Of a stretch of DNA of 64,000 nt, positions 1 through 61,200 are shown in pieces. The stretch lies in contig CM074865.1 of NCBI GenBank assembly GCA_037501455.1, forward strand, positions 34,020,501 to 34,084,500. The letters are read 5' to 3'. Within the stretch, counting starts at the first letter, position 1. Each line of letters starts with the position of its first letter. Both the position numbers and the translations under genes were made by a program. The notes beneath the pieces were generated by a model. It ran no database searches. It worked only from the letters and a program-made list of their open reading frames with translations, and was not told the origin of the DNA. Source of the DNA: Lantana camara (Eukaryota; Streptophyta; Magnoliopsida; Lamiales; Verbenaceae).

Positions 1-1791
1 GGTCGTAGGTCGCATTAACTAAAAGAAAATCCTAAAACCTCACCTTTTACCAAAAGTACCCATGGATGAGCGTTGGTGATCAAGAAGAAGTTAAACGGTG
101 GAACCAACACCTCTCGAACTCAAATTTGAGATAAACAAACATAAACTCATGACGTAGACTCGATCATGAACCAATTAGACGCTCGGCGACACATACGAAT
201 GCAAATGGATGCAACGCATATCATATAGATTCATACTTAGGCATATCAAATCAAATAATGAGATATCACATAAGGAATTCAAGAATTAAACTCATATCAT
301 ATGAAATAAACTCATGATGTGTCATATTATAGCATAACATAAGTGTTCATGAGTCTACAATGCATAACAGAGACAAACGAATCTAGAAAGAATCACACAT
401 AGCACTTAAACGCATATCAATTCAAGTCACGTTTACACTTATCAAATGGATCCATAAAATTAGAATAAATGACTAAACATGTTGTATAATCACATATTAA
501 CATGTTGAGGTCATAATTGGGGTGGGATAAATCGAATACAATCAAGAACGAAGCAAGAAATGAACAACGAAACGAAGCGGAGCACACAAAATCACACCAC
601 ACGAAACACACCCCAAAATAGAAGAAGGTAACGGGCGTTAGGTATGGCCATCCCAAAAGCCTTAATGCCCGTTAAAAGAAACAGGAGCAAAATTTCTCCA
701 AGGCTAGAGGAGGTAATGGGCGTTACCTCCCCAAAGGGGAAAAGACTTAACGGGCGTTAACCCCGTCGTCTGCTCCAAAACGAGAGCAGCCATGGCTGCT
801 CTCCCCTGCAACTCAACCAACAACAAGAGCAGCAAGGAAGAAGCATGAAAGCAGCAACAGATAAGCATGAAAAGGTCAAAGAAACATCATAGAAACAAGC
901 TCTAAAACTCCAAAATCAATCAAGCAAGAGATTCATCAAAATCCAAAATCCCTAACTATTCACACCAAAACTCATAGCATGCTTGAAACTCCATGAAAAT
1001 GAGAATAACATAGCTCTAAATGACCACAAGAATGAGGAGAGTAAAACCATATACTTACCTTTCAATTTGGAGAAGAAATGAAGATGTATGGAGCTCAAAA
1101 CTTGCAAAGTGAACAGTATCAGATTTCCCCCTTTTTCCTTCCTCTCGGTTCCACCTCGTTTTTCCCCTTTTTTGCTGAGTTTGAGTGTGTGGTTGGGAGA
1201 TAATAAGAGAGAGGGTTTAACTAAGGTCAAATAGGCTCAAGAATCAAGTCATTTGGTTAAGAAATGAAAGAGTTTTAGCCAAAATACTCCAAGGTGGCGA
1301 AGCTGTGCATGCTGTTCGGTTCGGAGGAAATACAGGGGTCCAAACTGGCTTAGAAAAATATGAATCTAGGTTCTTCATTTCCTTTCTTCCTTACAAGTCC
1401 AGCGCCACTTCCGGAATTCGAATCCGAATTCCCGATCTCAAGTTATGGCCTCCGAAATCCGAGGCGCGCTAAAACTCGTTAGGCCCTCAAATCCCAAAAA
1501 TAAGGAAATGGTCTCCGACCAATTCGAACAAGTATAAACGAATAAAATAAACACGTAAACAAGTTCATGAAATATATAATTCAAGCATATCACGTATTCA
1601 CATAGCTCGGAAAATAAATTCAGTATTAGAAATTAAATACGAAAGTTAAAACGAAAAATCTAAACATTTAGGGCACATAGGTCACTTAAACAATTAATTC
1701 AACGAAGAAATAAAATAAAAAAGGGAAATTAAAACATCAAAAACCCTCTCGTGATGTCATACCTGGCTTGCCGAAGAAACGAGGTGTCACA
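1..1791 (-). mobile_element. Partial gypsy-type LTR, family L copy A
   Basis: Read on the minus strand, an LTR begins at 1791 with TGTGACACCTCG and runs left out of the window. It shares landmarks with the other family L LTRs: a splice-donor-like GAAAG/GTAAGTAT (complement of about 1051-1066), a second donor block (complement of AAACCTCACC near 38-47) and a dyad cluster at 627-761. It interrupts copia C1a: the sequence right of 1791 (AGAGTTACCTAGATG) continues C1a, and the uninterrupted counterpart lies near 43811 in C1b. The left TSD lies outside the window. Whether this is a solo LTR or part of a longer element cannot be told. It contains no convincing gene. Confidence 0.8.
627..761. repeat. 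5-6-5 dyad cluster, copy A (4 sites)
   Basis: Four 16-bp dyads lie at 627, 661, 712 and 746. They read GGTAA-CGGGCG-TTAGG, CTTAA-TGCCCG-TTAAA, GGTAA-TGGGCG-TTACC and CTTAA-CGGGCG-TTAAC. Within-pair spacing is 34 and 34 bp, and the pairs are 51 bp apart. Arms are complementary or nearly so. The cluster lies about 1.03-1.16 kb from the LTR 5' end. Confidence 0.8.
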
Positions 1792-11901: not shown

Positions 11902-13807
11902 CCTTAGGATGTAGCACCCGGAATGCTAGGTAGCCACATCCCCCGCACCATAGTTCAATTCACATATGATATGGACGACCCATACATGAATCAAGCCTAT
12001 AGCGAACGGGAGACAATAAAAAATGACTCACTTGCTAGGCGGGATAAACCCCAAACCAAACAATCAACTTAGAGCAATAAAAGTGGAAGCAATAATTCAT
12101 TCATTACTTATAGGTACCATATTTACATATCAAGTATAAATACTAATAGGTACCAACATACATATCAATACAATATCATACCACTTATCAAGACCAAAGC
12201 AAAAAGCAAAAGTATCAATAAGGTACATGCCAAAGTAAAATGACAATGCTAGACCCAAAGCGATAAAACTGGACTCGACCCCGCCTAGCACACAACCCTG
12301 CAAACTGAAAATGTGAGGTGTCAGTCTACACAAGACTGAGTGAGGGGTTTATAAATAAATATTAGCGCAAGTATCATGCAAGCCCTAATCTCTGGTAAGG
12401 TTTTATAAAATGAAACAATAAGTTCAAGAAAAACAATAGACTTGCCCGAGATTACAACTATTTCAATTTAACAATTCAATCAATTCAATTCAATCAATTA
12501 GTGGCCCGGCGAGTGAGGGAAATTCTCCAACCTTACTCCGATAGTGAACATTACCAATATTTAGATTATCAATGGTTAAGTGAGCATGCAAGTTATTACA
12601 GTGCACAATTAGCAGTTTCAATCCTTTTTTCCTCCGGTGATGGTGGGATTGCAAGGCCCCACCACCCAATCATGTTGTACGTCGGGAACATGACTCCCAC
12701 GTACGGGATTTCTTCATCCACCAAACCTCCTTGTGGACTCAGAGGTGATCCCAAATGGTGAGGATAGTGCAAGAGTTACCCGTCAGCCCTTGCTTCCCCG
12801 GTTGGCTCAATACACTATCCTCGGGCCTAAAGTGAACATGCTTTACTCGCCCAATCAATCAATCAATCAAGCAATCAATTCTTTCCGTGAAATTAGTTGG
12901 AAATCAATAAGGTTTGGAAAACTATAGGTATATATATACATTTTGGCCGAAAACTTCACATAAGGTTGTAGGGTTCTATGTATCTAGAATTAAACCTCAC
13001 CTGACGAGCGACAGAACAAGACAAGGATACAAGAAAGTGTGTATTCGATCAATGATCTCCGCCTTGGAGAAGAACTGGACAAGAAAGGAAACAACGTGAA
13101 CTCGTGAGATAAGACTCAATAATGAGACCAAGTATGACGCACGACAATGCTCTTGTAAATAAATAAACTATCCCAACACTTTAATAACCAAATAAATTGA
13201 TAATCAAGTAATACATAACATGTATGAGAACCAATTAACACTTAAGAGATGAAATAAATCTCAAAGAGTCATGTATTCACATCATTCCAATATTTCAAGT
13301 TCAATTCATATAAGGCATGGAGTCACACAATCACGTTTGAGCAATTAAGTACCCAGAAGTATCAAGTAGGAGCATACTTATCAATTAATCAAGTATATAT
13401 ATAATATAATTCACATATGGGAGCCAAGAGAGTGAAAGGAATGCAAGAAGGAAGGTTTTGGTGAAGTTTGGCAAAAGTTGACAGTTTTCGGAAACGTACA
13501 AGCTGTAGGAAAATGGAAATATCTTGAGTTGTACGAGTTAGAATTAATTTTTGTTTATTGTAAATGAAACTAGACACATAGGGCTTTCCAAGGATATATG
13601 GCTCGTTTTCTAGTTCAAAGCGAGGAGAAAATGGCGTAAACTTGAAGTTGGGTGAATGCAGTTTGTCGATAAAGTGGCGACAACAAAAAGAATTGATTAT
13701 ATCTTAGAAATGGGATAAGATATTGATGTTATTCCAACGAGGTTGTTCTAGACTTCAAGAGCTTTCCGTGGGTTCAAAAATAAGGTCAATCCGAGTTCAA
13801 ACGAAGT

Positions 13808-13928
13808 CGGCACGACCGTGTCAAGATTGGCCTGAAAGCTGACACGGCCGTGTTGTGCAGAAATATTCCAACTCGAAGTTCCAACACAGCCGTGTTGAGA
13901 ATGAACTAGGTTGGACACGGCCGTGTTG
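13808..13928. repeat. 5-6-5 dyad cluster, copy B (4 sites)
   Basis: Dyads at 13808, 13840, 13882 and 13913 read CGGCA-CGACCG-TGTCA, TGACA-CGGCCG-TGTTG, CAACA-CAGCCG-TGTTG and GGACA-CGGCCG-TGTTG. Within-pair spacing is 32 and 31 bp. The arm type (ACA/TGT) resembles copy G. Confidence 0.85.
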
Positions 13929-14498
13929 AAGCAAATTGGACGAAAAAATAGGGAAAAACAGGGCATACTTACGGAAATTGGCTCCCAAGCCTTCCCACAT
14001 CAAACCAAGACAAGAATTCACCCCAAAACTATCATATATCATGCATATATCTCACATATATCAATTAGCCACCATTTAATTCATGGAAACAAGCATAGCT
14101 CATCAAGAATTCATCCATGAAACTAATATGAAGTCAAATGATCAATCATGCTTCACACTTCATGAATCTAAGTTATAAATGTATGAAACTAGTTCAAAAC
14201 CAACATATAAAATCCATATAGCCACAAAGACATCACAAGAGTCATAAACCCTAACTTTGCTAACATAAATCCTCAAAGAAAATATGCATGCTCTTACCTT
14301 GAAGATGAGAAGATGAAGGGAAAGAGAAAGATAAAGTCTTGGAGCTCAAATTCTTGAAGAAAAATGGAATAAAACTTGGCTTCCTTCTCCATGGTTGGAT
14401 CGGTATAGAGGGAGAGAGAAATGGAAATATCTTTATCTTGTCTCAAGAATGAAAGGAAGGAGATAATATATGTATATGTGTATGTAAAATAGGAGGCA

Positions 14499-14500
<2 letters not shown>

Positions 14501-14538
<38 letters not shown>
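14501..14538. repeat. (AT)19 microsatellite
   Basis: An uninterrupted AT run lies in copy B near its LTR 5' side. Copies E and F carry AT runs at comparable positions. Confidence 0.95.
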
Positions 14539-14541
<3 letters not shown>

Positions 14542-14967
14542 TTGTATATACTTAAAGTGAGTCAAGATATATATGTATATGTGTATATATGTATGTATGG
14601 GATATAATTAAAGTGTGATGAAAAGTCTTGGCATTAAAACTTATTTGCACATAAGCCCTTGTCTCTTAGGAATTTACAAGTTAGAGATGTATCAACTTGA
14701 CATGTATGGGAGATGATTATATAACCATATATATATGTATATATACAGCTCTAAAAGAATATGCTGAAATGGAGTTGAATATATATATGTTATGCTAAAT
14801 CACTTAAATCATAATTGCAAGTATTCAAATCAAGGAAATTAAATAACGCAAATCTACTAAATATGAATCATGCCATAAATTACAAGTTGATAAAATTTCA
14901 TGTAGACACTTGATCAAATAATTCACAAATATCATGAAATACATAATTGAAAAACTGGGGCATTACA

Positions 14968-16729: not shown

Positions 16730-17860
16730 CTTGTTGGGAAATACAAAACGGTAACACAGCAGAATTAAATTTTTTCTCCCAAAAAGCAAGATCTAGACTT
16801 GTAATTCTTATTCTCGATTCGTAAGGATTTCAAAAACTGAATTCGATCGAATCTTTCTTGACACGTTTGAGCCGCGCTCAAATACGCTTCAAGTGGCAAG
16901 TCCCTCGAACTTCCTCGAATCTTCAAGCCTCTGAAATCGCAGTCCTCTAGTGTAATAATCCACACCAACCTCGATCAATATCTAAACAGTGAGGATTCTA
17001 GTACTATATTTAGTGTTTAGGCTCTAAGGGATTTGTATGAAGTAATTTAGAAAACATCTTGTATCAATCTTCCCATGGGGTTTGAACCCCACCCTTAAAT
17101 TGTAACATCCCGCTCGTCCGGCCGTACAGGTACGCCTTATCGAGATTGTTACGTGCGTATTTAATTATTTTATATTATGCCTTTAAATGTTTAATTAATT
17201 GCTTAAGTGTTTATTATAATATTTATTTGCATTAATTGTTACGTATTTAAACGTTTTTCCCTGTTTGATCCCTTTCTTTATTCGTATGCCCCGTATCTGC
17301 TCCTAATTATGTGAAATTATGCGACAACGTGTTATGCATGAATTACGTGTTTCAAGAATTTGTTTAAGTGCTCATTAATTGTTTTTGACTTCGTTTAACA
17401 TGGTTCATAAACCGTTTTAATGGTTAAGGGATTCGAGGGCCTAATTCGCTTAGCGCATCTTGGGTTCCGAAGGGCGTAACTTGAGCTCGGGAATTCGGAT
17501 TCGAATTCCTGAAGAAGCATCAGACTCAAAACGAAGAATGAAAGCTAGAGAATCCAACTTTGTATTTTTCTAAGCCCGTTTGAACCCCGTATTTCGCCCG
17601 TATTAAGCCTCGCGTGCATTTTGACCCCCTTGCACTAAAATGACCATATCTCCCTCATTTGTTGACCAAATTAAGTGATCTTTGGGCCCACATTCTTCTC
17701 ATTTAATTTCCTTTCTTTCCTTTTCCCTTTCACTTCGTTCCTCAGCAGAAAAAGAAGGAAAAGGTAGCAGTTCAACCGAGACAAGAAGGGAGGGAGAGAA
17801 GCACTAGTCAATCTTCATTTCCAAGATCGTTTCTTATCCGATTCGGCTCAAATTTGAAAG

Positions 17861-20192
17861 GTAATTCCGGTTTTATATTCTCAATCCCTTGACCTTTCTT
17901 TTAAGTCCATAATTGCTGAATTATATGATCATTTGAGCATTCTTTGGTTAGCAACATGAATATTAAGGGTTAGAGCTTTTTGTGATGAATTTGCTTGAAT
18001 TATTGAGCTTTCTTTGAATTTGATCCATGCTAATTGAACCTTAGACATCATATATTATTTGTATGGACCGAATTTGCATGCTAGCTTAGGATTTATGAGA
18101 GTTTGATTTAAGAATTTTGGGTTTTTGTATGAATATGTGTATACATGGTCCCTTCTCCATTTTCTTGCATTTTGGTTCGGTTTTGGCATGACTTTTGGCA
18201 AGTATTTGATGTATATTTGTGTCATATTCCTTTCCTTTCTTGTTGGCTTGAGTTTGAGTGGGTTTTGGTCGAGTTTTGCTGTTGTTTTTGCATCTGCTGC
18301 TGCTGTCGCCAGAGGTCGCGCCCGCGACCGGGGGAAGAAGAAATCTGGTCGTGCCCGCGACCAGACAATGGCCCAACTTCGACCTGCTACAGTGCTCAAG
18401 GCTGTTGAAGAAGATGGTCGCGACCGCGACCCTTTTTGGCCTGTTTTTGGTCGCCCCCGCGACCTGTTTTTGCCCTACCTTCAAATTTTTGCTGCTTTGT
18501 TTGCTGGAGAAGCGACCACATTTAGGCATGTTTCCCTTTTGGGGGAAGTTTCGAACTGCTTCTCCCTTGTTTGTTTCGTTTGTCGTTTCTTTGTGTTTTA
18601 TGTGTTTTCCTTGCTTCTTTCTTATCCTGTATGCATATATAACTTGTGTATTATGTGTTAAGTGTTTAATTATGAATTTATCTCGTGAATTCCATGCTTT
18701 TACGTGAAATAAACGATCTACGTACTCTATATGTCTTATATATGCATGCATGCAAGAATATTACGTTTATTTGATTTGTATGATATTTAATTGCTCCTTT
18801 TATGACTTGTATGAATTGTATACATGTTATTTAATATGTTAAGCTTGTTATATGAAATATATGAATTCGTTTAACGTGAAATAAATGGCCTACGTGCTTC
18901 ATATGTGCTTAAACGTGCATGCATGAACCTATATGACGTTTAATTGCTTTGCAAGGTATTTTCTTGAGCCTTTCATGACTTGCATGCATGGTTAATTTAA
19001 TATATGGCATGCTATGTGTGTTATATGAAATTCATGAAGTCATTTAGCGTAATTTATGGAATTTAATACGTGTTATGAATTTGCATGCGTTAAATGACCT
19101 CTCATTGTAATTCTTATGCATTATTTGCATTCATATGCATATGCCGAGCGTTTAAATGGTTCATGTTGAGTCTAAGTATGTCCCTTGTCCTTTGTTTTGT
19201 CTTTAGGTCCGTTTCGTGGTTGACGAGGAGGTGTTTTAGAAGTGTTTTGGTTCATTGCGTCCGGTGTGGTCGACAAGGTGAGGTTTTCTTCCTTTTTAGT
19301 TAAATGACCTACAACCCTACATGTGTTTTAAGCCTGCATGCGATATACGTATATATAATTATGTAAATACGTGTTTGATTAGTATTTTGTGGGATTTGTC
19401 CCTTTTACTATGAATTATTGGAAAAAAACTTTTATATATATACGTAACCTATTTTATATTTATTTGATTTGAAAAGGGTTGGTGTGTGTGAACGTTTTGA
19501 AAATAGCGAGAAATACAACTTTGTATATAAGTCGAAAAATTCTGAAATTTCGAAATTAATAAGACTTTGAATTCTGACTTATGAATTGGGCCCGAGGAAG
19601 TGGTATGTGATTCTCGGGTCGACCATGGGGTCGCCGAGCTCACTCATCAACACAACCCCATTTTGACATAGGGAAATTCGCCCATCCTCAGGAGTTCGAG
19701 GGGAAGGCGGTTTCTCGGTTACCAGCGATTGCCGGGGAACAGGTAGGATCCCCCGGCTCACACATTCTGACGAGAGAACGGGGTTGAGTAAACGTTAACT
19801 CATCCCCAAAAGGTGAAATGGTGGATTATTTATGAGCTTTGCTTTATTTTGATTCTGTTTCTTCTTTGAAAGGAGTTAGGTGGGTTTGAACTCGTTCTCG
19901 CCGAGTCTTTGATTTTTGCTTATGTTTGTTGTTCGTGAAACGAGAGTGGACTTGGACAATTGCTAAAATTTGGTTATTTTGGGCTTTTACCCTAAAATCT
20001 TTTATATATTTATTATCAAGGGCTAAAATGATTTAGATTGCAAAAACCACGCCCCGGTTCATGAACTTTCTGATTTGAATATGCTCTGTTCTATTATTTA
20101 CGTACGTGTGAGTGTGTTAGCCCCCTCATGTGTCATTAGGACTGACCCCTCCTCGTTGTTTTCTTTTCCCCTTTTCGTTCTTTGAGTTGCAG
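17861..20192 (+). other. Predicted two-intron 5' leader inside LTR copy C
   Basis: A donor GAAAG/GTAATT at 17861, an acceptor ...TTTGTCTTTAG ending at 19206, a 71-bp exon (19207-19277), a second donor GACAAG/GTGAGG at 19278 and a second acceptor ...TTGAGTTGCAG ending at 20192 fit two introns. Equivalents are kept elsewhere: the GAAAG/GTAAG donor on the minus strand near 1060, 14297, 26880 and 60583; the short exon with a CAAG/GTGAGG donor at 30411-30477 and 33781-33844; the last acceptor at 31206. The dyad cluster lies in intron 1. This is inferred from signals only. Confidence 0.55.
18314..18464. repeat. 5-6-5 dyad cluster, copy C (4 sites)
   Basis: Dyads at 18314, 18347, 18416 and 18449 all have arms GGTCG...CGACC. 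Cores are CGCCCG, TGCCCG, CGACCG and CCCCCG. Within-pair spacing is 33 and 33 bp, with 69 bp between pairs. Confidence 0.9.
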
Positions 20193-20607
20193 GTTCTCTT
20201 GGAGGTTGTTCGTGCTGGGCGGCGGTTGTTTCTTTTGAGTTTTGGGTCATTTAGCGAGTTCATGCATTGTTTTAGTTTAGTATGTACCTTTGAATTTTTG
20301 AAATATGTATAAGACCTTAAATTTGGAATTTGGTATAATTGTTTTGCCTAACGCGATTCATTATGGTATCTCTGATTAATTTCTTAGCATGAATATTCGA
20401 ATGTATGAATCCTGGTGCTTCCGCATTTGTATTTGTTTATTTCGCGTACTCTGATTTAGGGTCTAGACCGCCTAGCCTAGGTGTGATTTTGTTTATCACC
20501 CGTTCGCCGTATCTTGGTGTGTGTGCGGATTGTCCATTTCGTTACACGTGTCGAGCTTCGGTGCGGGGGGTGTAGTGCCTTGTGCTCCAGGGTACTACAG
20601 CCTAAAG

Positions 20608-20811: not shown

Positions 20812-21790
20812 ATGGCATCTTCATCTCGATATGAATCATCGAAAGGAATACAAGGGAAACAAGCAACCCCGATTTACAAGAAATTTAAAGAGTTCAATCC
20901 GCCGAAGTGGACCGGAGGTGATGAAGTTAAAGCCGAAAAGTGGTTGTCCGAGATACTAGAGATTTGGGAAAATTGTCCAGGATCATCACAAGAGAAGGTA
21001 GAGTGTACTTCCCATTTATTTCAAGGCCAAGCTTCAAATTGGATAAAAGAATTAAGATAGACAGTGGAAGAATCCGGAAAAGAGCTTGGTTGGGAGATAT
21101 TTACTCGGGAATTTTATTATAAGTATATTCCTCCAAGTGTGATGGTTAGAAGACTCCAAGAATTTTTGAATCTCGAGCAAGAGTTGAAGAAGGTGGATGA
21201 CCTCATAATGGAACTTGAAAGTTCGGGAGCCGGCAAAGATTGCCCTAAGGTTCGAAGTTATTTACAAGAACGTAGAGATAACATTCTTCAAATTTTCCAA
21301 GCCTCATCGGTACACGAATGATCCGAGGAAGTTAGAAGAACAGTTCAAGTGGAAATGGGTAATCAAAAGATGGAGTCTCACTCTCCTTATGTGGGACGAG
21401 ATTTGGGTTTGATTTCTAGCTCAAGCAAGAGACCCATATCTCAAATGGAGCTTTAAGAATTTGAAAGTGGCAACATTGACAAGAAGAAAAAGAAGAAAAT
21501 TCAATCATCGAAGAAGGGTTTGGTGCCCTCTCCGTCGAAGATGATTCAATGCTCTTATTGTCAAGGCCCAAATCATACGACATTGTAGGAAGAAATCAGG
21601 AAGATGCTACATATGTGGAGATTTGGGACATCTAGCAAACGGGTGCCCGAAGAATAGGAATTTGAAGCCAACGAAAAGCCGTGGTTCCAAGGCATCGAGT
21701 CAAGCCCAAGTTGAAGCAAGTGGAGATAAAGATTTGGATGCCAAGTTCGACATTTTCGTTACGGTGAAAGGTACACCAAAACATTTATGG
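20812..21790 (+). pseudogene. gag of copy C, decayed
   Basis: A gypsy-type Gag: Met at 20812 (MASSSRYESSKG), a conserved FNPPKWTGGDEVKAEKWL, FQGQASNW, then the retrotransposon-gag core FYYKYIPPSVMVRR. Two zinc knuckles follow: CSYCQGPNH (from 21550, cut by a frameshift) and CYICGDLGHLANGC (about 21605-21646). There are in-frame stops at 21058 (TAG), after SSVHE (about 21320) and near 21455, and one frameshift near 21590. It aligns by eye with the longer-frame gag of copy G. There is no pol downstream. Confidence 0.88.
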
Positions 21791-24209: not shown

Positions 24210-24811
24210 TGTAGCACCCCGGAGTGCAGGGCACTACTATAGCCCGACACATATAATGAAATGGGCACTCTGCACATGCACCAAGTTACAGCGAACGGGT
24301 GACAAACAAAACACACACATTAGCTAGGCGGTCTAGACCCTAATCCAGAGTGCACAGAATAAATCAAAACAAAAGCGAAAGCCACAGGATCAATTCATAC
24401 AATCATACATGCTCAAATCAACACAAGTTATACATAATATGCCCATCCAAGGCCTGATAAATCATACAAGGTTCTAAGCTCAAATTCTGAATCATAACTT
24501 ATACAAAGTTTCGTACATATCTTAAACATAATACCAATGCGAAATGTAAAGATGCAAAGACCCGGCTGACAAACTCGAACAAAACTACACAAAGGACCGC
24601 CGCCTAGTACGCACCAACCTACACCTGCAAACTTAACAAAATAGAAGAGGAAAAAGAAGACAACGAGGAGGGGTCAGTCCTTAAGACTGGTGAGGGGGCT
24701 AACACACTCACACATACGTATAAATAGAGCATAACATATTTAAAATTAGAGGGTTCATGAACCAGGGAGTGGTTTTTGCAATCCAAAACATTTAACACGT
24801 GATACTAGGTA

Positions 24812-24996
24812 TGTCACACCCCGGGCTCCGCGGGCTCGTTGGACGCGAGCGCAAGTTTCCAAGCCCACCGAGTATAACCTAGTATTGGGCCTAAACCACT
24901 GCCCAAAAGGGATATCCATTGGTTATACTTGGACTCTTTAACTTATATACTGACCTTAATTATCATATTTTCCCGATGTGGGACAGGGGTGTCACA
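24812..24996. mobile_element. Small 185-bp solo LTR nested in copy D
   Basis: TGTCACACCCCGGG...GGGGTGTCACA is flanked by TSD AGGTA (24807-24811 and 24997-25001). The copy G LTR shows the uninterrupted site near 58920. No 5S-rRNA-like promoter was seen, so I do not call it Cassandra. Confidence 0.88.
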
Positions 24997-26228
24997 AGGT
25001 ATAAGGAAAAGAGTTAAGGCTGAAGGCCAAAATCAACTAAATTTTAGTACTTATGAATCCACTCCTATTTCACAAACCAAGTTCAAAGTCACACACACAA
25101 CTCGGTGAGGACGACCTTCAAACCAACCTAACTCCATTCATAAATCAAAGATCTAAATCAAAAGCAAAACATAATTCAGAATCAAACAAACATACCTCTT
25201 CTTCGGGTGATGGCAGGGTGGTGCCACCCTGTCCATCGGGTATGGGTCGTAAGTTTCATGACGCTCACGCCCGAGGACTCCTTCCCCCACCAAGCCTCCT
25301 AGTGGGTTCAGGGTTGATCCTTAAGTGAGGAGACCATGCTAGGGACTACCCGACGGCCCACACCTTCCTGGGTGCCCTTCGCACAAATCTCCGGGGCCCA
25401 ATTCATAATTCATAGTTCATAAGTTCATAATTTTCAAAATTCAACTTATCTTTCAAAGTCATACCTCGCTAGTTTCAAAACACACACACCAACCCTTTTC
25501 AAAACAAATAAACGAAAATATAACTTACGTATACATAAAAGCGATTTTCAAACGTTTCATAACAAACGGGCCAATTCCCACGAAATACATATCAAACACG
25601 TATCAGGTCAAATGCAGGCTTCAAAATTCATGTAGGGTTATAGGTCGTATTAACTAAAAGAAAGAAACCTCAGCTTGTCGACCACAACGAACAAAACGAA
25701 CTGGAACATACCTAAGAGACCACCTCCTTTCCCTCGAGACAAAGCTCTGAACAAAACAAAGGGTGAAAGAAGGACTTAGACTCACACATGAACCATATAG
25801 ACACTCAGCATATGCATATGGATGCAAAAGATGCTTAAAAGATGCAACGAATTATCATATACCGCATGTAAATTCTTAAGAAATCATACGTCTCCTAAAT
25901 CAAGTTAAATAAATTCATAAATTTCATATAACATGCATAACATATCATACAACATATTAAGAAGATATTTCATATCATATAGGAGCAAGGAAAAGTCATA
26001 CAAGGCACATAACCGAAGTATGAAGTCATATACACACGTTAAGGTAGCATGTTGCACGTAGGAGAGCATAAATAAAAAAGGAACACATAAATCAAGCCAT
26101 AAATTCATAACATAGCACTTAACACATAATATGACATATTAACATAACATATAAGTCACAAACGAACCATAGAAGGCAATCAAAGCACGAACGAAAGGCG
26201 AAAAACAACCCATACCCACGCAGGGGAT

Positions 26229-26426
26229 GGTCGCTGCCGCTACCACTTTTCTTCATGGAAAGGTCGCGGCCGTGACCTCCAACTTGAAAACCAGGCCAAA
26301 ACAGGGCACATCCGTGATAAAAAATCAACTGAAAATGGTCGCGGCCGTGACCTGAACTCAAAACAAGGCTAAAAAGGGGTCGCGGCCGCTACCGAAAATG
26401 AACTAACCGGGATCGCGGCCGTGACG
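26229..26426. repeat. 5-6-5 dyad cluster, copy D (6 sites, one decayed)
   Basis: Sites at 26229, 26262, 26337, 26378 and 26411 have arms GGTCG or GATCG with TGACC, CTACC or TGACG, and core CGGCCG (CTGCCG in the first). A decayed site GGGCA-CATCCG-TGATA lies at 26304, exactly 33 bp before its partner. There are three pairs of 33 bp, with 42 and 41 bp between pairs. Confidence 0.88.
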
Positions 26427-27635
26427 AAGCACGCAGCAATAGCAAAATAGGGTAACAGTAGCCAAAAGCCACACAAAACCAATCCTAAATCAATCTAGCA
26501 AGCAAGGGAAAGATCATACAATTAATATACATCAAATTCTGACCATATATCATGCAAAAATCAAACTAACATGCAAAAGAAAGGAATAAATGGGATCAAA
26601 CATTCATACTCTTCAAATTTCACATAAAGTATTAATGCTAACCTCAATTAAATGCACCAAACTTCTGTAATGAGTTCATATAATCAATAATGGAAGTCTT
26701 AGGTTCATAAATGATGCATCAAACTAACAAGAATCAAGAGATTTCATGCCAAATTCATCAAATTTCTCTAAACCTTTACTATCCATCATATTATCCAAAG
26801 CATGCTTAATACTCCATGAAAATCAGAAAATGAGCACTCAAAACAAAGAGTATAAGATGGAGAGCAAGATTCCGGACTTACCTTTCGAATTTGAGGCGAA
26901 TCGGAGGTGTATGGAGCAAGAACTTGGCAAAGTGAATAGTATTTCCCTTTTTCTCTCTCTCTCTCTGATGAACTGCTGCTTTTCCTCTTTTTCCTTGGTT
27001 GGGGTCCCAATGGGGAGTAATTTCGTGGATATAGGGTTTAATTAGGGTCAAATAGGTTCAAATATGGGGCGATTCGGATAAGAAACGGGTCGGTTATGAT
27101 CAAAACAGGCGAACATGGAAAATCTGTCATACGGGTCGCGTTTCGGGCAAAATTTGGAGGTTCGAACGGGCTTAGAAAAATACCACACCAGGTTCCTTAG
27201 CTTCCTTCATTTTTTATGAGTCCGACGCTTCTTCTGGAATTCAAATCCGAATTCTCGAGCCCAGTTACGCCTTCCGGAACACAAGGTGCTCTAAAATGAG
27301 TTAGGCCCTCGTGTCCCTAACAAATAAAATGGTTCAAAAACCGTATCAAACGAACTCAAAACATAAAACGAACACGTAGACAAGTTTATAACAGACATAT
27401 TTCATGCATATCATGTAATCACATACTTAGGAGCACTATGGGGTCATACGGATCGAACGGGGAATCAAACGGGGTCGAAACAAACAAATACATAACAAAG
27501 TGTAATAAATAATTATTCAAATAATCAATTAGGCATATAAACAATTTAATATACACATAGAAGCATAAATAAATAAATAAAATGGGTACAAAACACTCTC
27601 AAAAGTGCGTACGACCGAAAAATCGGGATGTTACA

Positions 27636-29054: not shown

Positions 29055-29497
29055 CATTCATTTCATAAGCAACATATTTTCTAACTTACACTATTTATCT
29101 AATAGTAACATTATATTTCATGCATACACTTATATAAATATACATACTTATATATACGTACCTATACATTTTATACATTTCATACATACATTATATATAT
29201 TAGGATATAAAGTACATGTACTTATATACATATAATATATCATAATATCTCCATTTCAATTTATACATACACTAATATATCACCTAATATAATACATATA
29301 TATACACTACACCCATTCATTTCACACACTAAATCTCTAACACACACACAAACACCCTTCTCTCAACTCTTCACACGCACACACACACTCCATTTGATTC
29401 AAGCAAGAAAGAAGAGAAGGAGGAGCATCACCATTTCCATTCATCATCTTTATCATCTCCATCACTACAGTTTTTTCATTTCCTCCATTTCTTCAAG

Positions 29498-29500
<3 letters not shown>

Positions 29501-29569
<69 letters not shown>
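29501..29569. repeat. (TA)n-(TG)n compound microsatellite
   Basis: About 22 TA units are followed by 12 TG units in solo LTR E. Confidence 0.95.
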
Positions 29570-29906
29570 TGAATAGTTAGGGCTTTGGTGATTTGGGTGT
29601 GTATTCTTGTTTGTAAGCATGTTTATGTGTATATATATATGTTCTTATATGAATCTAATGTACGAATTCTTGGTGGTTGGGTAAAATATGATTACATGTA
29701 ATAAATGAGGGTTTGTGTGAATTGTTTTGGATGACCCAAGTGCCCAAATGTGTGTTTTATGTTGCCTTGTTGAGTTATTATGTGCATATTAATATTATAA
29801 GAATGTTTAGACTTGATTTACCCAGCTTTGGTTGTGTTGTAGTTGATTTTGGTGTTTTTCCTGAGCCCTACCCCTGTTTTCCCGTATTTTTCATCACAGA
29901 TCAGGC

Positions 29907-30107
29907 CCAAATGACCGTTTGGCTTCCAGTTCATTGCTGGAAATGGCCGTTTGGAACGAATCTGCACTCTTGTTCAACGAAACTCGAAACGACCGTTCTG
30001 GTCTCCAGTGTAAACTGGAAACGGCCGTTCCGAGTGGTTCTCCTTGGACTCGAGAGGGTCCAAACGGCTGTTTGGCTTCCCTTAAGAAACTGGAAATGGC
30101 CTTTCAG
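29907..30107. repeat. 5-6-5 dyad cluster, copy E (6 sites)
   Basis: Sites at 29907, 29939, 29985, 30017, 30060 and 30092 have arms of type CCAAA/TTTGG or GGAAA/TTCCG. Cores are TGACCG, TGGCCG, CGACCG, CGGCCG, CGGCTG and TGGCCT. Within-pair spacing is 32 bp in all three pairs; pairs are 46 and 43 bp apart. Spacers also carry CCAG...CTGG or CTCCAGT elements. Confidence 0.9.
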
Positions 30108-32507
30108 ACCCCTTCTGTTCGGTTTTCTTGTTTTACTTATTTTACGTGTTTACTTTGTGCTTTCTTTTTCGTATCCTTTCCTGGACTCTTTTATGTGTTA
30201 TAAATTATGAATATGTTGTTTCTCACACATGCATGAGTGAATTATACTTAGGATTCGTTTATCGTTTATGTAGGGCATTAATTGTGCACATGAACATTTT
30301 CATAACATATTAACATCAAATCTCATATCATATCATCTCATAAGCATGCTGTTCGTCGATTAATTGGTTCATAAGTCTTGAGTCTCATGTACACTGTACT
30401 TCTTGCACAGAGCTCGATCCCGAGGTTGAGGAGCAGGGTCCGCAGGCTTCTCTCTTTACTCTCTCTCTTTTGTCAAGGTGAGGTTTTATTTCAAGCTATT
30501 TAGAACCCATAATATCTCATGTGATAATTTTAGCTAAAATGTCCTATCTATACTTATATTTTAGAAAATGAATCATTGTACAAATGTTTTCAAACGCTTT
30601 CATGCAAATGTTTTGGCGAGATTATGCACATGTTATTGGGCCCCAGGGTAACGTGTGAATGGAGAGCGGTATGACATTGGACCGTCGGATAACCCATTGC
30701 ATATAGTACCCTTTGAGAATATCCTCGCGCGAACAGGAGGCTCGGGAGGTGGGATATTCTTGAGCCGGTGGTTAACCCATCGAAGGACCGGGTAGGAGTC
30801 ATGATCCCCCATCTCGATATTGTCTCATGAGATGGCTTGGGCCTTGCAAACCCTTCCACCGCCCCGGAGGAAGAAGGATGGAAAATTATAGTTATTTCTC
30901 ATGATTATGATTATGATTATGGATAATATGATTATGTTATGCATGAAGGCTTAATCAAGTTTTATGCACACACTATGGGAGTAAGGTTAGAGAATTGCCA
31001 CTCACCGGGTCACGTAATGATTATGAATTGTAAAGTAATAATTGTGTATTCGTAATTTCGAGCGATGTCTTTGCTAAACCTCCCACTTGGGTTATTCTAA
31101 ATCGTTACTCGGAGTTATGGATTGCATGTGCATGCGATATATTTATTATGCCCCTCACTTAGTCCTTGGACTGACACCCCCACGTTGTTTTTTTAGCTTT
31201 TTACAGGTGTGCTAGTTGGGGAATAAGGTCGTCGTGGAGTCCTTATTTTGAGTCTAGCATGTCTTTATATTTTATCGTCTCATGAATACTTTGATACTTC
31301 TGATTATGTAATAATCTATTTTGGAGAATTGTTGTAAATATTTGATAACCGTATTGGCCTTGGTTGTATCCCTTGAATTACATGCTTTTGTTGGAGATGA
31401 GTATGCTTTATAATATTATTATGCTTTTGCTTTAATCATTGCATCGTAATGTAATTGGTTTAAGGGTTAACCCCACTTAGCTGGGTTGAGTTCTTTTGAT
31501 CTTGTCAACTATTCGCCATGTGTTTGATTCATGTATGGACTTTCATTTCATGTATGGATCGGACTCATGGTACGGGGGATGTGGCACCTATCGATGCGGG
31601 TTCTACATAATCAGTGCACATATCACACTACCATGGTCTAGCAACAGGTGTGCGACCCCTAACTGAATAAGAATGTATAAATTCGAAGAACTTTTAAGTA
31701 ATTGATATAGGTGAAATAAGGTCCTCCTACAACCTATCTCTCAAGGTAAATCTAGGGTAAGGGAATAATTAGAACCCTAATAATCTTGATCTTAAAGCTA
31801 AGTGCATTTCACATCCATTTGATCTCAGTCCAAGAAACCCCTTTCTTAGTCTTGATCCACTGCCTTGGCCAAGGACTCCGAGATGGCATATGAATGACTT
31901 AAACAATAAGAGATCATCTTGCTAAAGCAAGTGTAGGTCCTTTATCGATTCTCATATGCTTTCATGTGCCACTTGTGTAGCCCCAATATAAGCCGTAATT
32001 CAGCTGTCTCAGGTGACATCCTTTTAGGCTTATTTCTTAAACTATAGAGTAGGCTCACATAAAGCATCGATGGAATCTCAAGTCTAAGGACTACTGAATC
32101 ACATCAATGACTCGTGAGATGTTTCCTAATCTGGAAGTTTCTATTTCTAGAAATAGAAAATTCCTTTCCCTGTGAAGACCCGTGTTTTCGTCGTACAGGT
32201 ACGTGTGCCACACGTGTGAGTTTTGAGAGTGAGAACTATGTATGCTTATTTGAATTATATGTCTAATTGAATTATGCAAATTATGTGATTTATTTTCCTT
32301 ATATGAACACCTTAATTATATTTGATTTCATTTTTATTTTCTAACTTATACATATTCCATTCCATTTCATTCATAACATATTCATATTTCATAAAACCGA
32401 TTCATTTCATTTTATAAGCATTTACATATTTTTCTAACTTGTATATATATTTATACTAAAACTATTTTATAAAATAGTAAATCTTTTACAATTCATGCTC
32501 ATGTATA

Positions 32508-32509
<2 letters not shown>

Positions 32510-32558
<49 letters not shown>
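32510..32558. repeat. (TA)n microsatellite
   Basis: About 24 TA units in solo LTR F. Confidence 0.95.
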
Positions 32559-32562
<4 letters not shown>

Positions 32563-33357
32563 TCACACATACATAATATAATATATAGTACTTGTACTTA
32601 TATACATATTATATACCATAATATCTTCATTCCACTATACACATACAACTAATATATCTATACTTATATTATACATTACATTACATACATATACACATAT
32701 ATGATATATCTTCCACTTTATACGTACACATATACATACAAATATATTATAACACATTACACTTATATACACTACACACACACACACACACTAAATCTCT
32801 AACACACACATACCCTCCCCCCAAAAAAATTTTCTCTCAACTCTTCACACACTTCATATACCAACATTCCATTTTGATCCAAGTAAGGAAGAAGAGAAGG
32901 AGAAGGAGGAATCTAAGCATCATCATCATCATCTTCATTATTCCATCATCTCATTCTTACCTTCTTCATTTCTCCCAAAGATTGTATTTATATATATGTG
33001 TGTGAGTGTGTGTAAATGTATGAATGTGTGTGTGTTTGATAGGGGTTTTGGAGTCTAAGTTTAAATTCATGCCTCTTGATGTGTTTATGCTTATATATGT
33101 AAGTATCCTTGAATTTATAGCTCTTAACACTTGGTTGTTGGTGAATTTAATGAACTTGTGTATATTTGAGGGTTTTGTGAATAGTGTGACTTGAATCTTG
33201 GTCTGAACATATGTTATATGATGCCTACTTGAGATATAATGTGTATATATGTGTTAAAATCATGTTATGATTTACATTTTCAGTTTTGAACTTGTTTGGA
33301 TTGGGTTTTGCTTGCTTTTTCCGTAGCTCCCCTGCATATCTCCTGCTGTCGAACTTT

Positions 33358-33572
33358 GGTTCTTGGCCTAGAACCTTTTACGTGCATTTTGATCCCAGAC
33401 GGGATCGCCTTGAAGGTGTAATGTCTGATCATCGATCCCAACTGGGATCCTTTTGAGTTCAAAACCAATCCCGACCGGGAGGGTGAGGCAGGAATGGCCA
33501 TGCACACTTAGCTGCTAGAGCTATATCCCGACCGGGACCCATTTTACACTAAAACTAATCCCGGCCGGGATG
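33358..33572. repeat. 5-6-5 dyad cluster, copy F (6 sites)
   Basis: Sites at 33391, 33434, 33467, 33524 and 33557 have arms GATCC, AATCC or TATCC with GGATC, GGAGG, GGACC or GGATG. The best core is CGGCCG. A different palindrome, GGTTCT-TGGCCT-AGAACC (33358-33375), sits 32 bp (centre to centre) before the 33391 site. The other pairs are 33 bp, with 43 and 57 bp between pairs. Confidence 0.88.
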
Positions 33573-35419
33573 CAGCCTTGGAAAGTCTATATGTGTTATT
33601 CCAATTCTTTTCGTTTCAATACTTGTTTACGTCGTCCGTGGGACATTAATTGTGCACATGAACATTTGTATGAATTATTGACATCAATGTTTCATATCAA
33701 ACCATCTCATAAGCATGCCGTTCATCGATTATTTGGTTCATAAGTCTAGAGTCTTATGTATACGTGTATTTCTTGCACAGAGTTCGATCCGGTTATCGAG
33801 GAGTAGGGTCCGTAGGCTTCTCTTCTCCACACTCTTTTGTCAAGGTGAGGTTTTAATTCTAGTTAAAAGAATCCATTATACCTCGTGTGACTATTTAAGC
33901 TAAAATGTAATATTTATACGTATATCTTGGAAAATGATTACTTATGCAAATGTTTTCATGAAAATGTTTTGACGAGAATCATGCACATGTTATTGGGCCC
34001 CAGGAAATGTGTGAATAGAGACCAGTAAGGCATTGGGCCGTCGGATAATCCATTGCACATAGTACCCTATGAGAATATCCTCGCGCGACTTAGGTGGCAG
34101 TGAGGCGGGATATTCTTGAGTCGGTGGTTAACCCATCAAAGGAGCGGGTAAGAGTCATGATCCCCCATCTCGATATTATCTCATGAGGTGGTATGGGCCT
34201 TGCAAACCCTTTCACCACCCCGGAGGAAGAAGGATGGAAATTATTATTATTTCTCCTGATTATGGTTATGATATGGACATTATGATTATATATTATGTTA
34301 TGCATGAACGCTTAATAAAGTTTTATGCACACACTATGGGAGTAAGGTTGGAGAATTGCCCACTCGTCGGGCCACGTAACGATTATGAATTGTCAAGTAA
34401 TAATTTGATATCCGTAATTCCAAGCGATGCTTTTCCTACACTACTCACTTGGGTTATCCTAAACTTTACTCGGAGTTATGGATTGCATGTGCATGTGATA
34501 TATCTATTATACCCCTCACCTAGTTCTTGGACTGACACCCCACGTTGTTTTTAGTCTTTTGCAAGGTACGCTAGGCAGGGAACAAGGTCTTCGTGGATTC
34601 TTTATTATGGTTCTAGAATGTCTTTACATTTTAGCATCTCATGAATACTTGATACACTTGAATTATGTAATAATCTATTTTGGAGGAGTATTGTAAATAT
34701 TTGATGGCGGTGTAGGCCTTGGTTGTTTCACTTGAATTTTATGCTCATGATGCATATTGGTATGTTTTCTAATATTATTATGCTTCCGCTTTAATTATTG
34801 CATTGTCTTGTAATTAGTTTAAGGGTTAGCCCAGCTTAACTACGTTGAGTTATTTTATCTTCACCTGTTCGCCACGTGTTTAATTCATTTATGGACTTCC
34901 ATTTCATATGTGGATTGAACTCATGGTGCGGGGAATGTGGCGCCTATCGATGCGGGTGCTACATTCTCATTCAGGAATCTTCTCACACGGGACACCTCAA
35001 TGTACTCGTTCAAATCAAGTGACCACCCTCATGTATCACGCACATATGAACTATACACTTTACATCCTATAAAATAAGGTGATCCTTCTTAAGGGCATAA
35101 GCACATAAGCAAGCCTCAAGCGAGTCAATTCAACACTCGCACTGTCTTTCGGACTTTCCGACTTGGAGTGCTTTCTAATCTTAACTTATTCGATTTAGGG
35201 CTCGTTTCATAAACCACTTCTCCTAAGTTGTTGAGTCTTATAAGTTAATTAGATTAGGGGAATTCTTACACATGCGTAGTTAAAGTAATCATGCAATCAA
35301 ATAAGAGCATACAAAAAAGTGTTGCCTTATGATTGAATCTTTTTGTTTATTATTCAAAAATTATCTATGATTTACAAAGGAAAAGCACTAAGCTAGTTTT
35401 AGGCGCGCTATTCCTAACA

Positions 35420-41682: not shown

Positions 41683-42050
41683 GCCAACGTGGCAGGTGAC
41701 GTGGCACTGACGTGTCACGCCACGTCAGCAGTGTGGGTCCAGGTGGCGCTGACTAGGCGGCCGCGTGGCACGCCACGTGGACGGCCCAGATCACTCCACG
41801 TCAAGCGCGAGCAACGGTCCAGATTTGTCTGGACCGGGCGATCAACGGTTCGGATACCGGGTCAACGGGTCGGGCAACAAATCGGATCTTGGGTAGGGTC
41901 GGACTGGGTCCGGTTCCGGGTCGGACCAGACCCGGACACGTGGCCGAATGAGAATCGGCCACGTCAGTCCCAAACCCTAGCCGAGGGTACAATACAAGCG
42001 CCGCCTTTAGGCGGCGCGTGAGGGCGCGTGACACATCAGATGGGCGCGTG
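41683..42050 (+). promoter_or_regulatory. ACGT-box and hairpin-rich U3 block of C1b 5' LTR
   Basis: Eight ACGT cores occur at about 41687-41964 in contexts such as AACGTGGC, GACGTGGC, CCACGTCAG and CCACGTGG, which are G-box/ABRE-like bZIP motifs. Inverted repeats with 6-bp cores include CTGACGTG-TCACGC-CACGTCAG (41707-41728), GGTCCAG-ATTTGT-CTGGACC (41816-41835) and CCGGGTC-GGACCA-GACCCGG (41916-41935). It lies roughly 150-520 bp upstream of the TATA box. The 3' LTR repeats it at 48774-49140. The overlapping 110-codon ORFs are composition artefacts. Confidence 0.65.
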
Positions 42051-55508: not shown

Positions 55509-55510
55509 TC

Positions 55511-56010: not shown

Positions 56011-56039
56011 TGGGCTCAAAGCTGATGTCAAATTAGCTA

Positions 56040-58294: not shown

Positions 58295-61200
58295 TGTAAC
58301 ACCCCGGAGCGGAGGGCGCCACATCCCCCGCACCATTGCCCAACACGGGTATCGAAATGGGAACTCCGTCCCCGCATCGAACCATGGCGAACGGGTGACA
58401 AACAAAAATCAATTCTAGGCTAGGCGGTCTAGACCCTGAATAGAGTGCGCAACAAAATAAAATCGAAAGTGCGGAAGCTACAGGATCACAAAACAAACCA
58501 ATTACAGATATAAAAGCTCAGAAAGAGATATACATATTTCAACATGCATTGCCCACCCCGGGCTAACAGAAAATGCGTAGCTTCAAATTACAAAACATAA
58601 CTTATACTTATTTATACATAGTACCAAATATACGTAGTACCAAAGCGGGAAAGTAAATATGCAAATGCAAAGACTATACAAAGACTCAAAAGAATCCCAA
58701 GACTCGAACAACGACCGCCGGCTAGCCAGACTCCCAACCGGTTACCTGCAAAGCTCAAAACGAAAGGGGAAAAGAAAAGAAGCAACGAGGGTCAGTCCTA
58801 GAGACTGGTGAGGGGGCTACACACGCACACATACGTATAAGTAAGAGCATAGCATATTCAAATCAAAAATGTTCATGAACCGGGTGTGGTTTTTGCACTC
58901 CAAAAGGGTTTAACCCGTGATACTATATATATAAAGAAAGGTTTAGGGCCAAAGGCCAAAATCATCCAAGTTTTACCAATTAAGAGTCCACCCCGTTTCA
59001 CAAACCGTATCGGATACATAAGCATAACCAAAATAGCACGGCGGGAACGAATCCACACAGACTTACTCATATCAAAACAAAACTCATAAACAATCCCACC
59101 TCCACACCATTGGGGAAGAGAGGTGCCCCTCTCAATCCCACCACAGAACAAAACAGATGAACCTGAGGATCCCGCCAGGTTAGGAGAACTAGTCCCCCAT
59201 TGGTGGAGAAGTGTCCTAGGGTTGCAACCGGCGACCCCGATGGTCGTCCCGGGTCTCCCGAACCACACAACTCCGGGGCCCAAACAGATCACAGAACAAA
59301 CACACACACCTCTCACTAAACGGATACTTGTCTCAAAACTTTCTTGTCAAAACTTAACACGTACACACAACAACTCTCTTCGAAAGAGAATAAACAAAAC
59401 ATAGCTTGTATACATATAAAAGTCTTTTCAATGGATTTCGTAGCAAATGGGCCAATTCCTGCAAAATACATATCAAACACTTATTCATATGTATATATAG
59501 TTCGCATGCGGGCTTAAATTACAATTAGGGTTGTAGGTCATAATATCTAAAAGGAAAGAAACCTCACCTCCGAGAAGCAACGAGAACAAAGGAAGCAAAC
59601 GAACGTCTAGAAGACAACCTCGTCAACCAAGGAACGAACCTAAAGGCAAAACAAAGGCAAAAGACAACCTTAGACTCAATATGAACCACATTAGATGCTC
59701 GGCACATGTGGATGTATGTTTATGATGCAAAGAATACGAAATGAATGCACATTAGGTCATATAGGAGCATTCAAGGCATATAAGGTTCTATCTCATAACC
59801 GAGAGCAAAGAATATACCATAAATCCACAAAATCAAACTTAACATGTCATACAACAAGTTAATCATGCATATACATCATAACCAAGGCAAGAAGAACCAA
59901 CGAAAAGCAACGAAACGACGAAAGAAACCCCTCCCGGCCAAAACCTACTGAGTGGACACGGCCTTGTCCGGAATGCAAAGGAATCGGACACGGCCGTGTC
60001 CGGTTTAAATTAATTCAGGGTCCAAAGTCGAGAGCTTGACACGGCCGTGTCCACTTCCATTTAAAACATGACACGGCCGTGTCATGCGTTCGGATCTGGA
60101 AAAATATAACGCAGCAACAACAGTTTTTTGGCAAGAAAAACAGGGGATTTCGGTATTTGGCCTTGGGGAGTCTCTTATGCCTTCAAAAACACATAAATCA
60201 AGCATGAAAATAACATTAATCCAATATATATTTATACCATACAAGGAGAAACAAATTCAGCCACAAAACATGCAAGAATCAAAGCAAGAAAAGGGGAAGA
60301 ATGCATCAAGCCATATCATCAAATTCTCAAGTATTCATCCATGTCCAACTAATCATATCTCAACTACTAAGGAAGGAGGTGCAATAAAAACTTAGAATCA
60401 TGTTAAACGAGCAACATATATTCACCATAACTCAAGGAAATCAAGAAGGAAGCAAGAATCAACAAATTCCACCCAACCTCTACTAATCACAAGCTTGCAA
60501 GAACTCAAGAACCAACCAAAGGAATCATCTCAAATCCACATATAATAGATAAGAGAGAGTGTAGATTACAATCATAAGCTTACCTTTCGAATTTGAGAAG
60601 ATTCGGATGTGATTTGAGCTCAAAATCATCAAGAATGGCCAAAAGGGTTTCTTCCTTCTTTTCCCTTGGAGTTGAACGAGATTGATGAGAGAGGGAGGGA
60701 ATGGCTCGGTTCTAGGGGGGTTAAGGGCTGAAAATGGATGTTAAATCATGGCTCAAATCATGGTTAAGGCTTGGTTAGGGTTTAAGTGGGGTCCACAAGG
60801 CTTAATTAAGTCAAAAGGTAGCTTTAAGGCGCAAGGGGCTCGTTCCGGTCGAAAAACGGGGAATCAAATGGCCTTAGAAAAATATGAATCTTGATTCTTT
60901 GTCTTGATTTCTTCGTTACGAGTCCAACGCATCTTCCGGAATTCGAATCCGAGTTCCCTAGCTCAAGTTACTCCTTCCAGAACACAAGGTGCGCTAAAGC
61001 TCGTTATGCCCTTATGTCCCTAAAACATAAAACGGTTTTCAAAACCGTATCAAACGAACTCAAAAACAAGTAACGAACATAAAAACACATTCATAACACA
61101 TATAAGTCACGCATAGCACGTAGTCACAAAAATCGAAAATGAAAACGAACATAAACGGAGCAAGAACGAAACAAAGAGAACAAATACGTTCAAATAAATC

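Follow-up and report, generated by a model that had tools for sequence, protein, structure and literature searches.

Paired palindromes at a fixed spacing, with words that often differ between the long terminal repeats of one retrotransposon family in Lantana camara

Long terminal repeat (LTR) retrotransposons account for a large share of many plant genomes; for few of them is it known in what way the LTRs are read and kept active or silent. Among described systems, the Sireviruses carry repeated LTR motifs in the form of clustered, element-specific palindromes with a CGG-CCG core and high identity within an element; these motifs are reported to be absent from the other Ty1/copia elements studied (Bousios 2010, PMC2829016). 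In the VANDAL transposons, the target motifs of the VANC proteins are family-specific, lie in non-coding regions including introns and diverge together, according to Hosaka et al. (2017, PMC5735166). Here we describe seven LTRs (A to G) of one retrotransposon family, termed family L, in a 64,000-nucleotide stretch of the Lantana camara genome (assembly GCA_037501455.1, contig CM074865.1, positions 34,020,501 to 34,084,500 of the forward strand; hereafter the window). Each LTR carries a cluster of dyad-symmetric sites set in pairs 31-34 bp apart. Judging from the sequence, we consider it probable (about 0.6) that these dyads are paired dimer-binding sites for a sequence-specific protein whose specificity changes between lineages, and that the array is likely regulatory.

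In the portions of PMC2829016 compared, the Sirevirus motifs resemble the family L dyads in being clustered, repeated palindromes, mostly in the upper half of the LTR, with one word per element. Their core is CGG-CCG; here CGGCCG occurs in 11 of the 34 dyads (B 2/4, D 4/6, E 1/6, F 1/6 and G 3/4; none in A and C). Sireviruses have at least eight copies per element, against four or six per LTR in a window that holds no complete two-LTR element. Their clusters start 200-400 bp into the LTR and differ in arm layout, whereas those found here start at about 1.0-1.3 kb. Moreover, Sireviruses are Ty1/copia elements, whereas the coding remnants beside LTRs C and G look Ty3-type, leaning away from a Sirevirus carrier. 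With core and copy number agreeing only in part, the dyads are not placed in the Sirevirus motif class. A first-pass annotation of this DNA knew of no described LTR element with such a module. That statement calls for a reservation in view of the clustered, element-specific CGG-CCG palindromes of Sireviruses; the fixed 31-34 bp pairing finds no mention in those portions of PMC2829016. What sets family L apart from the Sirevirus precedent is the fixed spacing of the pairs, the switching of words and a carrier that is probably Ty3-type; this would suggest that Sirevirus-like palindrome arrays are not confined to Sireviruses.

As far as the sections of PMC5735166 used here extend, the VANC targets are likewise multiplied, family-specific short motifs, with different words in related families; in family L too, a family-specific motif changes in concert among its copies. 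The VANC targets belong to DNA transposons with a known element-encoded reader, whereas the dyads lie in LTRs and their reader is a proposed one. The VANC motifs read YAGTATTAY or AGTTGTCC in tandem repeats, those of VANC21 in one orientation; palindromes or fixed pairs, present here, are not mentioned in the same sections. The BII boxes of Tnt1, a Ty1/copia element, also place several protein-binding boxes in a plant LTR and bind defence-induced factors (PMC3316501); the dyads are predicted sites. Among the titles and abstracts of the matches listed, a literature search gave none on paired fixed-distance dyads in Ty3-type LTRs, subscription papers being mostly outside its coverage. We know of no word switching among the Tnt1 BII boxes.

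The seven LTRs are listed below. The sense of B, C, D and G was assigned because a primer binding site follows B and C and a polypurine tract precedes D and G.

LTR A: 1..1791, minus strand; 3' end past the window edge, sense by homology
LTR B: 11910..14967, minus strand; primer binding site follows, from 11901
LTR C: 17101..20599, plus strand; primer binding site follows, from 20608
LTR D: 24210..27635, minus strand; polypurine tract GAAGGAGGGGAG precedes, from 27649
LTR E: 29055..31608, plus strand; start cut off by another repeat and its position approximate; sense by homology
LTR F: 32171..34963, plus strand; sense by homology
LTR G: 58295..61345, minus strand; polypurine tract precedes, from 61359

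As had been described earlier, every one of these LTRs carries four or six paired dyads, which amount to 34 dyads in 17 pairs. Counted from the start of the LTR, the first dyad begins at 1.03-1.26 kb, or at 0.85 kb in E, which is truncated. The pairs, with the distance between their members and the LTR's word, are as follows.

LTR A pair 2: 627..676, minus strand; 34 bp apart; word TAACG-NN-CGTTA
LTR A pair 1: 712..761, minus strand; 34 bp apart
LTR B pair 2: 13808..13855, minus strand; 32 bp apart; word ACACG-NN-CGTGT
LTR B pair 1: 13882..13928, minus strand; 31 bp apart
LTR C pair 1: 18314..18362, plus strand; 33 bp apart; word GGTCGCG-NN-CGCGACC
LTR C pair 2: 18416..18464, plus strand; 33 bp apart
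LTR D pair 3: 26229..26277, minus strand; 33 bp apart; word resembles that of C
LTR D pair 2: 26304..26352, minus strand; 33 bp apart; member 26304-26319 (D4) degenerate, 3/7 pairs
LTR D pair 1: 26378..26426, minus strand; 33 bp apart; member 26411-26426 (D1) with 4/7 pairs
LTR E pair 1: 29907..29954, plus strand; 32 bp apart; word AAACG-NN-CGTTT; second member (E2) with 4/7 pairs
LTR E pair 2: 29985..30032, plus strand; 32 bp apart
LTR E pair 3: 30060..30107, plus strand; 32 bp apart; second member (E6) degenerate, 3/7 pairs
LTR F pair 1: 33359..33406, plus strand; 32 bp apart; word ATCCCG-NN-CGGGAT; first member differs, GTTCTTG-GC-CTAGAAC
LTR F pair 2: 33434..33482, plus strand; 33 bp apart
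LTR F pair 3: 33524..33572, plus strand; 33 bp apart
LTR G pair 2: 59954..60001, minus strand; 32 bp apart; word GACACG-NN-CGTGTC, near that of B
LTR G pair 1: 60037..60084, minus strand; 32 bp apart

Each dyad had been given a 5-6-5 form, with perfect 5-bp arms around a CG[G/C][G/C]CG core. The symmetry is there, but only 3 of the 34 dyads have this exact form; perfect 5-bp arms are present in 14 and the exact core in 14. Because the inner CG bases pair too, the unit is better described as a 7-bp inverted repeat around 2 bp (7-2-7) with an inner CG-NN-CG. At least five of the seven arm positions are paired in 30 of the 34 dyads, and the inner dinucleotides are CG in 50 of 68 cases and TG or CA in 13. 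The weaker dyads were assigned partly by position.

Within pairs the spacing is 31-34 bp in all 17 cases (mean 32.6, standard deviation 0.8). The values reported in the first-pass annotation were recovered in every LTR (A 34, 34; B 31, 32; C 33, 33; D 33, 33, 33; E 32, 32, 32; F 32, 33, 33; G 32, 32), as were the distances of 41-69 bp between pairs (10/10). When an equal number of dyads was placed at random in the same spans, the joint probability of all odd gaps falling at 31-34 bp was about 6e-19; since some weak dyads were accepted for their position, blind scans outweigh this figure. One such blind scan, compared with shuffled sequence, covered the seven LTRs and counted sites with at least five of seven pairs and at least one inner CG. 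The scan returned 35 matches, of which 28 were among the 34 dyads and seven lay elsewhere, with 9.6 single matches expected from shuffles. Pairs 31-34 bp apart numbered 11, against a mean of 0.02 (maximum 1) in 200 dinucleotide shuffles. The spacing is LTR-specific: it varies less inside an LTR than from one LTR to the next, a tightness reached in 9 of 20000 label shuffles.

The whole window was also scanned for groups of at least three similar 7-2-7 palindromes (GC of at least 7) within 250 bp, with no requirement as to word, CG or place. This gave 34 clustered members, namely 28 in the seven clusters and six in both LTRs of one other element; 50 shuffles yielded a mean of 0.02 and at most one member. 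The LTRs of the other element, 95.8% identical, each hold three related ACGTG-bearing palindromes in about 90 bp (41687-41778 and 48778-48869), which resemble a G-box. This suggests that further LTR families of the genome have word arrays as well.

Dyad symmetry is maintained. In a covariation alignment of the 34 dyads (33 distinct), compared with 500 shuffles in which the 3' letters were dealt anew, arm cells were paired in 83.5% of cases (60.7% shuffled), cells changed on both sides numbered 49 (18.9 shuffled) and the covariation score was 0.564 (0.208 shuffled); no shuffle reached any of these values. Sliding the partner by 1-3 columns left 22-45% of cells paired and a score of at most 0.16. 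When arms were dealt among the dyads of the same LTR, a mean of 178.9 of 238 cells were paired, compared with 189 for a dyad's own arms (32 of 5000 deals reach this).

The outer arms are alike within an LTR and different between LTRs, with a similarity of 7.62/10 within (n=69) and 4.13/10 between (n=492). Five words occur in the seven LTRs, one being shared by B and G (7.2/10) and another by C and D (8.0/10). The spacers behave differently: their similarity is 5.38/14 within LTRs (n=13) and 5.07/14 between (n=123), and 1453 of 5000 label shuffles reach this, in a comparison to which 13 within-LTR pairs give little power. Across LTRs the spacers have a weak polar pattern in common, with a T-rich start and an AAACT-like end (5.07 versus 3.93 shuffled, 0/2000), which suggests that all seven LTRs share an old pair unit. 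The simplest reading is that the dyads, not the spacers, were re-spelled together in this old unit.

Outside the dyads, the seven LTRs are 40-66% identical to one another, except for E and F downstream of the dyads (83%). Over the 21 LTR pairs as a whole, word similarity did not follow LTR identity, the Spearman coefficient being 0.10 upstream (p 0.67) and 0.05 downstream (p 0.83). The closest LTRs, E and F (66% upstream, 83% downstream), have the least similar words (1.0/10), suggesting that a switch of specificity can be rapid. B and G, at 45-47% identity, nevertheless use a common word. Between E and F, identity is 0.47-0.62 over positions 384-1282 of E in the sense direction and about 0.8 on both sides, the lowest values (0.47-0.49) falling over the dyad cluster.

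The most probable explanation of these observations is that a symmetric (dimeric) sequence-specific protein docks on each dyad. A pair about 32-33 bp apart would then seat two dimers or one tetramer side by side, perhaps cooperatively, and two or three pairs would form the regulatory array of the LTR, affecting its transcription or silencing. The array apparently lies in an intron of the transcribed leader (see below), where its most likely role would be that of an intronic enhancer or of a platform against silencing. In each arm, the five outer bases would be the word read by a shared trans-acting reader, with the inner CG-NN-CG recurring in every lineage. Selection by such a reader is favoured because the outer word is common within an LTR and often different in another, and because the sites change in concert without the spacers, which duplication or gene conversion would have moved along. 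Four to six sites with a common word amid drifting spacers are a testable sign of a reader acting in trans. The recurrence of CG-NN-CG across words points to one reader family, and the word shared by the distant B and G to a limited dictionary. If one protein family reads all the words, the LTRs form a natural series for how transposon regulators change specificity. The reader could be a set of host transcription factors adopted by the lineages or, as with VANC, a dedicated, co-evolving protein encoded by the elements. The latter version, a switchable two-dimer docking code in which a lineage's whole array is re-spelled symmetrically while CG-NN-CG, spacing and leader-intron place are kept, we put forward tentatively, as a possibility that is less than even; if true, it would amount to a system for recognising retrotransposons that parallels VANC and its targets, with paired LTR palindromes as building blocks.

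The self-complementarity of the dyads also allows for an account in terms of RNA, in which partner dyads form a 16-bp stem in the LTR transcript and serve as RNA structure, as a source of hairpin-derived small RNAs or in RNA dimerisation. Palindrome clusters of maize Sireviruses attract small RNAs, according to PMC10760457, which cites Bousios 2016. Folding of the clusters predicted mainly partner stems in 8 of 17 pairs (both in B, both in G, one in D, two in E and one in F), and arms match those of the pair partner at 5.26 of 7 positions, compared with 4.99 for other pairs in the same LTR and 5.56 for the dyad's own arms. A selected stem should pair better than one with a swapped partner, and this was not the case: real hairpins had -19.79 kcal/mol and swapped ones -19.96 (n=17, p 0.87). 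In addition, the central 2 bp are Watson-Crick compatible in 7 of 17 pairs, and the flanks are complementary at 1.88 of 5 positions on the outer side and 2.00 on the inner, compared with 1.99 at random. For several dyads folding predicts self-hairpins (A2, C1, C3, E5, F1) or stems with a non-partner (C2 with C4, D3 with D5, F2 with F3), other pairings making up the remainder, and no Rfam family reached threshold in the window. The swap test, the centre bases and the flanks, with no energy comparison to shuffled clusters among them, do not support the partner stem as a selected structure, and the stem alternative raised in the first-pass annotation is unlikely; RNA stems may arise as a side effect of the symmetry.

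Closer to the protein-site reading, and overlapping with it, is the view that there is no dedicated reader: each lineage took up a working palindromic site of a host transcription factor, and the pairing is an ancestral layout. The coincidence of the B and G words in distant LTRs is what a limited dictionary would give, and the three related ACGTG palindromes in another element's LTRs, which are G-box-like, fit as well; the inner CG-NN-CG recurring across words suggests one reader family instead. We regard this view as possible but somewhat doubtful. A neutral origin, in which a palindromic unit was tandemly duplicated in place within each LTR and then decayed, would explain why the step from one pair to the next is 73-78 bp in B, D and E and in one case in F, and why spacing is more uniform within LTRs than between them. 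Duplication would, however, homogenise dyads and spacers together, whereas within an LTR the dyads are alike and, in the low-power spacer test, the spacers are not; as the arms covary too, this origin is very improbable. The least probable of the accounts considered takes the CG-NN-CG cores as a CG-methylation platform for host silencing and gives the outer arms little weight. The CpG ratio of the cluster does exceed that of the rest of the LTR in five of seven cases (B, C, D, E and G; barely in C), but is equal in F and lower in A, and symmetric, LTR-specific outer arms and fixed pairing are left unexplained, as is the loss of CG from one or both sides in all but 19 of the 34 dyads.

The placement of the dyads within the LTRs has a bearing on the protein-site reading. 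Splice-like signals recur at homologous places in the seven LTRs (the slash marks the splice point).

Putative splice donor 1, LTR A: 1051..1063, minus strand; GAAAG/GTAAG
Putative donor 1, homologous places: B 14290-14302, D 26874-26886, G 60576-60588; strict GGTAAG, like A
Putative donor 1, LTR C: 17856-17868; GGTAATT
Donor 1 place, decayed: E 29493-29505, F 32975-32987
Putative acceptor 1, LTR C: 19195..19209, plus strand; picked by eye from the alignment
Putative acceptor 1, homologous: A 116-134 (weak), B 13072-13086, D 25744-25756, E 30400-30413, F 33770-33783, G 59637-59651
Putative donor 2, LTR C: 19273..19285, plus strand; AG/GTGAGGTTT
Putative donor 2, homologous: A 36-48, B 12993-13005, D 25666-25678, E 30473-30485, F 33840-33852, G 59560-59572
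Putative acceptor 2, LTR C: 20181..20194, plus strand; picked by eye
Putative acceptor 2, homologous: B 12296-12309, D 24623-24636, E 31197-31208, F 34555-34567, G 58744-58756

All seven dyad clusters lie between donor 1 and acceptor 1, which are 0.8-1.3 kb apart, and it is plausible that they are inside a leader intron. Donor 2 reads AG/GTGAGGTTT in six of the seven LTRs (GC in D), and acceptor 2 is present in all six that reach that far. The string AGGTGAGGTTT occurs seven times in the window, always in the sense of family L LTRs (six of A-G and a fragment at 58184). The identity of E and F falls from 0.83 to 0.60 near donor 1 and returns to 0.86 near acceptor 1. No TATA box was found at a common place in the LTRs; judging from the splice-like signals, the start of transcription would be upstream of the dyads, and the leader would hold two introns. 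This would be unusual in a plant LTR retrotransposon; according to a review, such elements generally have no introns, with Ogre and EVADE among the exceptions (PMC12786077). Spliced RNA could serve translation and unspliced RNA replication. A short putative exon of about 60-80 nt separates acceptor 1 from donor 2 (e.g. 59572-59651), within a better conserved stretch of the LTR.

A number of points weigh against this overall interpretation. The sample is small, consisting of seven LTRs in a single 64-kb window, in which no candidate for a reader gene was seen. In the covariation analysis, the pairs with a change on both sides (6 versus 5.5, reached by 230 of 500 shuffles) and the further pair types (15 versus 12.4, 34 of 500) did not separate from the control; the shuffle leaves relatedness among dyads in place, and the excess of self-symmetry within LTRs is modest. 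CG is intact on both sides in no more than those 19 dyads, and the comparison of spacers, as said, has little power. C and D, the second-closest LTRs (64-66%), have a common word, which is what simple inheritance would produce; over the cluster they are 0.47-0.52 identical, which is low but not the LTR minimum (0.39 elsewhere). With regard to the intron, the splice sites were picked partly by eye, strict GGTAAG is found at donor 1 in four of the seven LTRs, and of 12 occurrences of A[AG]GGTAAG in the window only four are at donor 1, with eight elsewhere. Finally, paired dyads had been proposed to be three helical turns apart and to face the same side of the DNA. The DNA reading is favoured over the RNA one, but a range of 31-34 bp represents about 100 degrees of rotation, too loose for rigid helical phasing, and the spacing differs between LTRs; strict same-face phasing is not supported.

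The dyad clusters reside in what looks like a set of nested, broken LTR elements. LTR lengths are 2.8-3.5 kb; six of the seven LTRs start with TG (E is truncated) and six end in CA (A is cut off), and the primer binding sites and polypurine tracts are likewise those of LTR retrotransposons. The primer binding site after LTRs B and C (TGGTATCA...) resembles the site for initiator tRNA-Met. An identified coding region adjoins only two of the seven LTRs.

gag open reading frame of the LTR G element: 62792..63751, minus strand; 320 aa with a CCHC zinc knuckle; matches Retrotrans_gag, though below the curated cut-off
gag remnant of the LTR C element: 20857..21778, plus strand; 51-55% identical to the G gag

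Both coding remnants of the family are gag only. They have the CCHC knuckle and match PF03732 with E-values of 0.0014 and 0.026, below curated cut-offs; the G gag also matches Ty3_capsid (PF19259) at 0.13, again below the cut-off, and a profile search found no copia-type gag match for either. The carrier of the dyad arrays is probably Ty3-type, given these gags. Compared with solved structures, the gag matched zinc-knuckle chains only (best E-value 0.0034). Among 1571 candidates from a protein collection, none matched the gag at an E-value of 0.001, and viral contigs contained neither the gag nor the paired-dyad pattern; neither collection is known to include plant genomes, so these results carry little weight. 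No pol domains belonging to these LTRs were found in the pieces searched, and the copies with LTRs A-G are broken or non-autonomous. Family L was not assigned the reverse transcriptase and integrase pieces at 54.6-57.0 kb, nor the copia pieces at 7.8-9.3 kb.

Further LTR fragments of the family (21996-22508, 23004-23213 and 57034-58294) stop short of the dyad region and were left out of the counts. The last of these, a truncated eighth LTR, lies directly against the end of LTR G, as would be expected if G had inserted into it; the dyad region of this copy would then fall outside the window. Between the G gag and the polypurine tract lie about 1.4 kb in which no domain was recognised, an arrangement like that of a non-autonomous element with gag only. 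The end of LTR C (20087-20599) recurs at 21996-22508 with 94% identity, right after the C gag remnant, as if a large internal deletion had fused gag to the 3' LTR end. Finally, the tips of several of the LTRs form short, hairpin-like inverted repeats, e.g. TGTAGTGCC...GGTACTACA (20571-20599, 58295-58323, 24210-24238 and 1757-1791).

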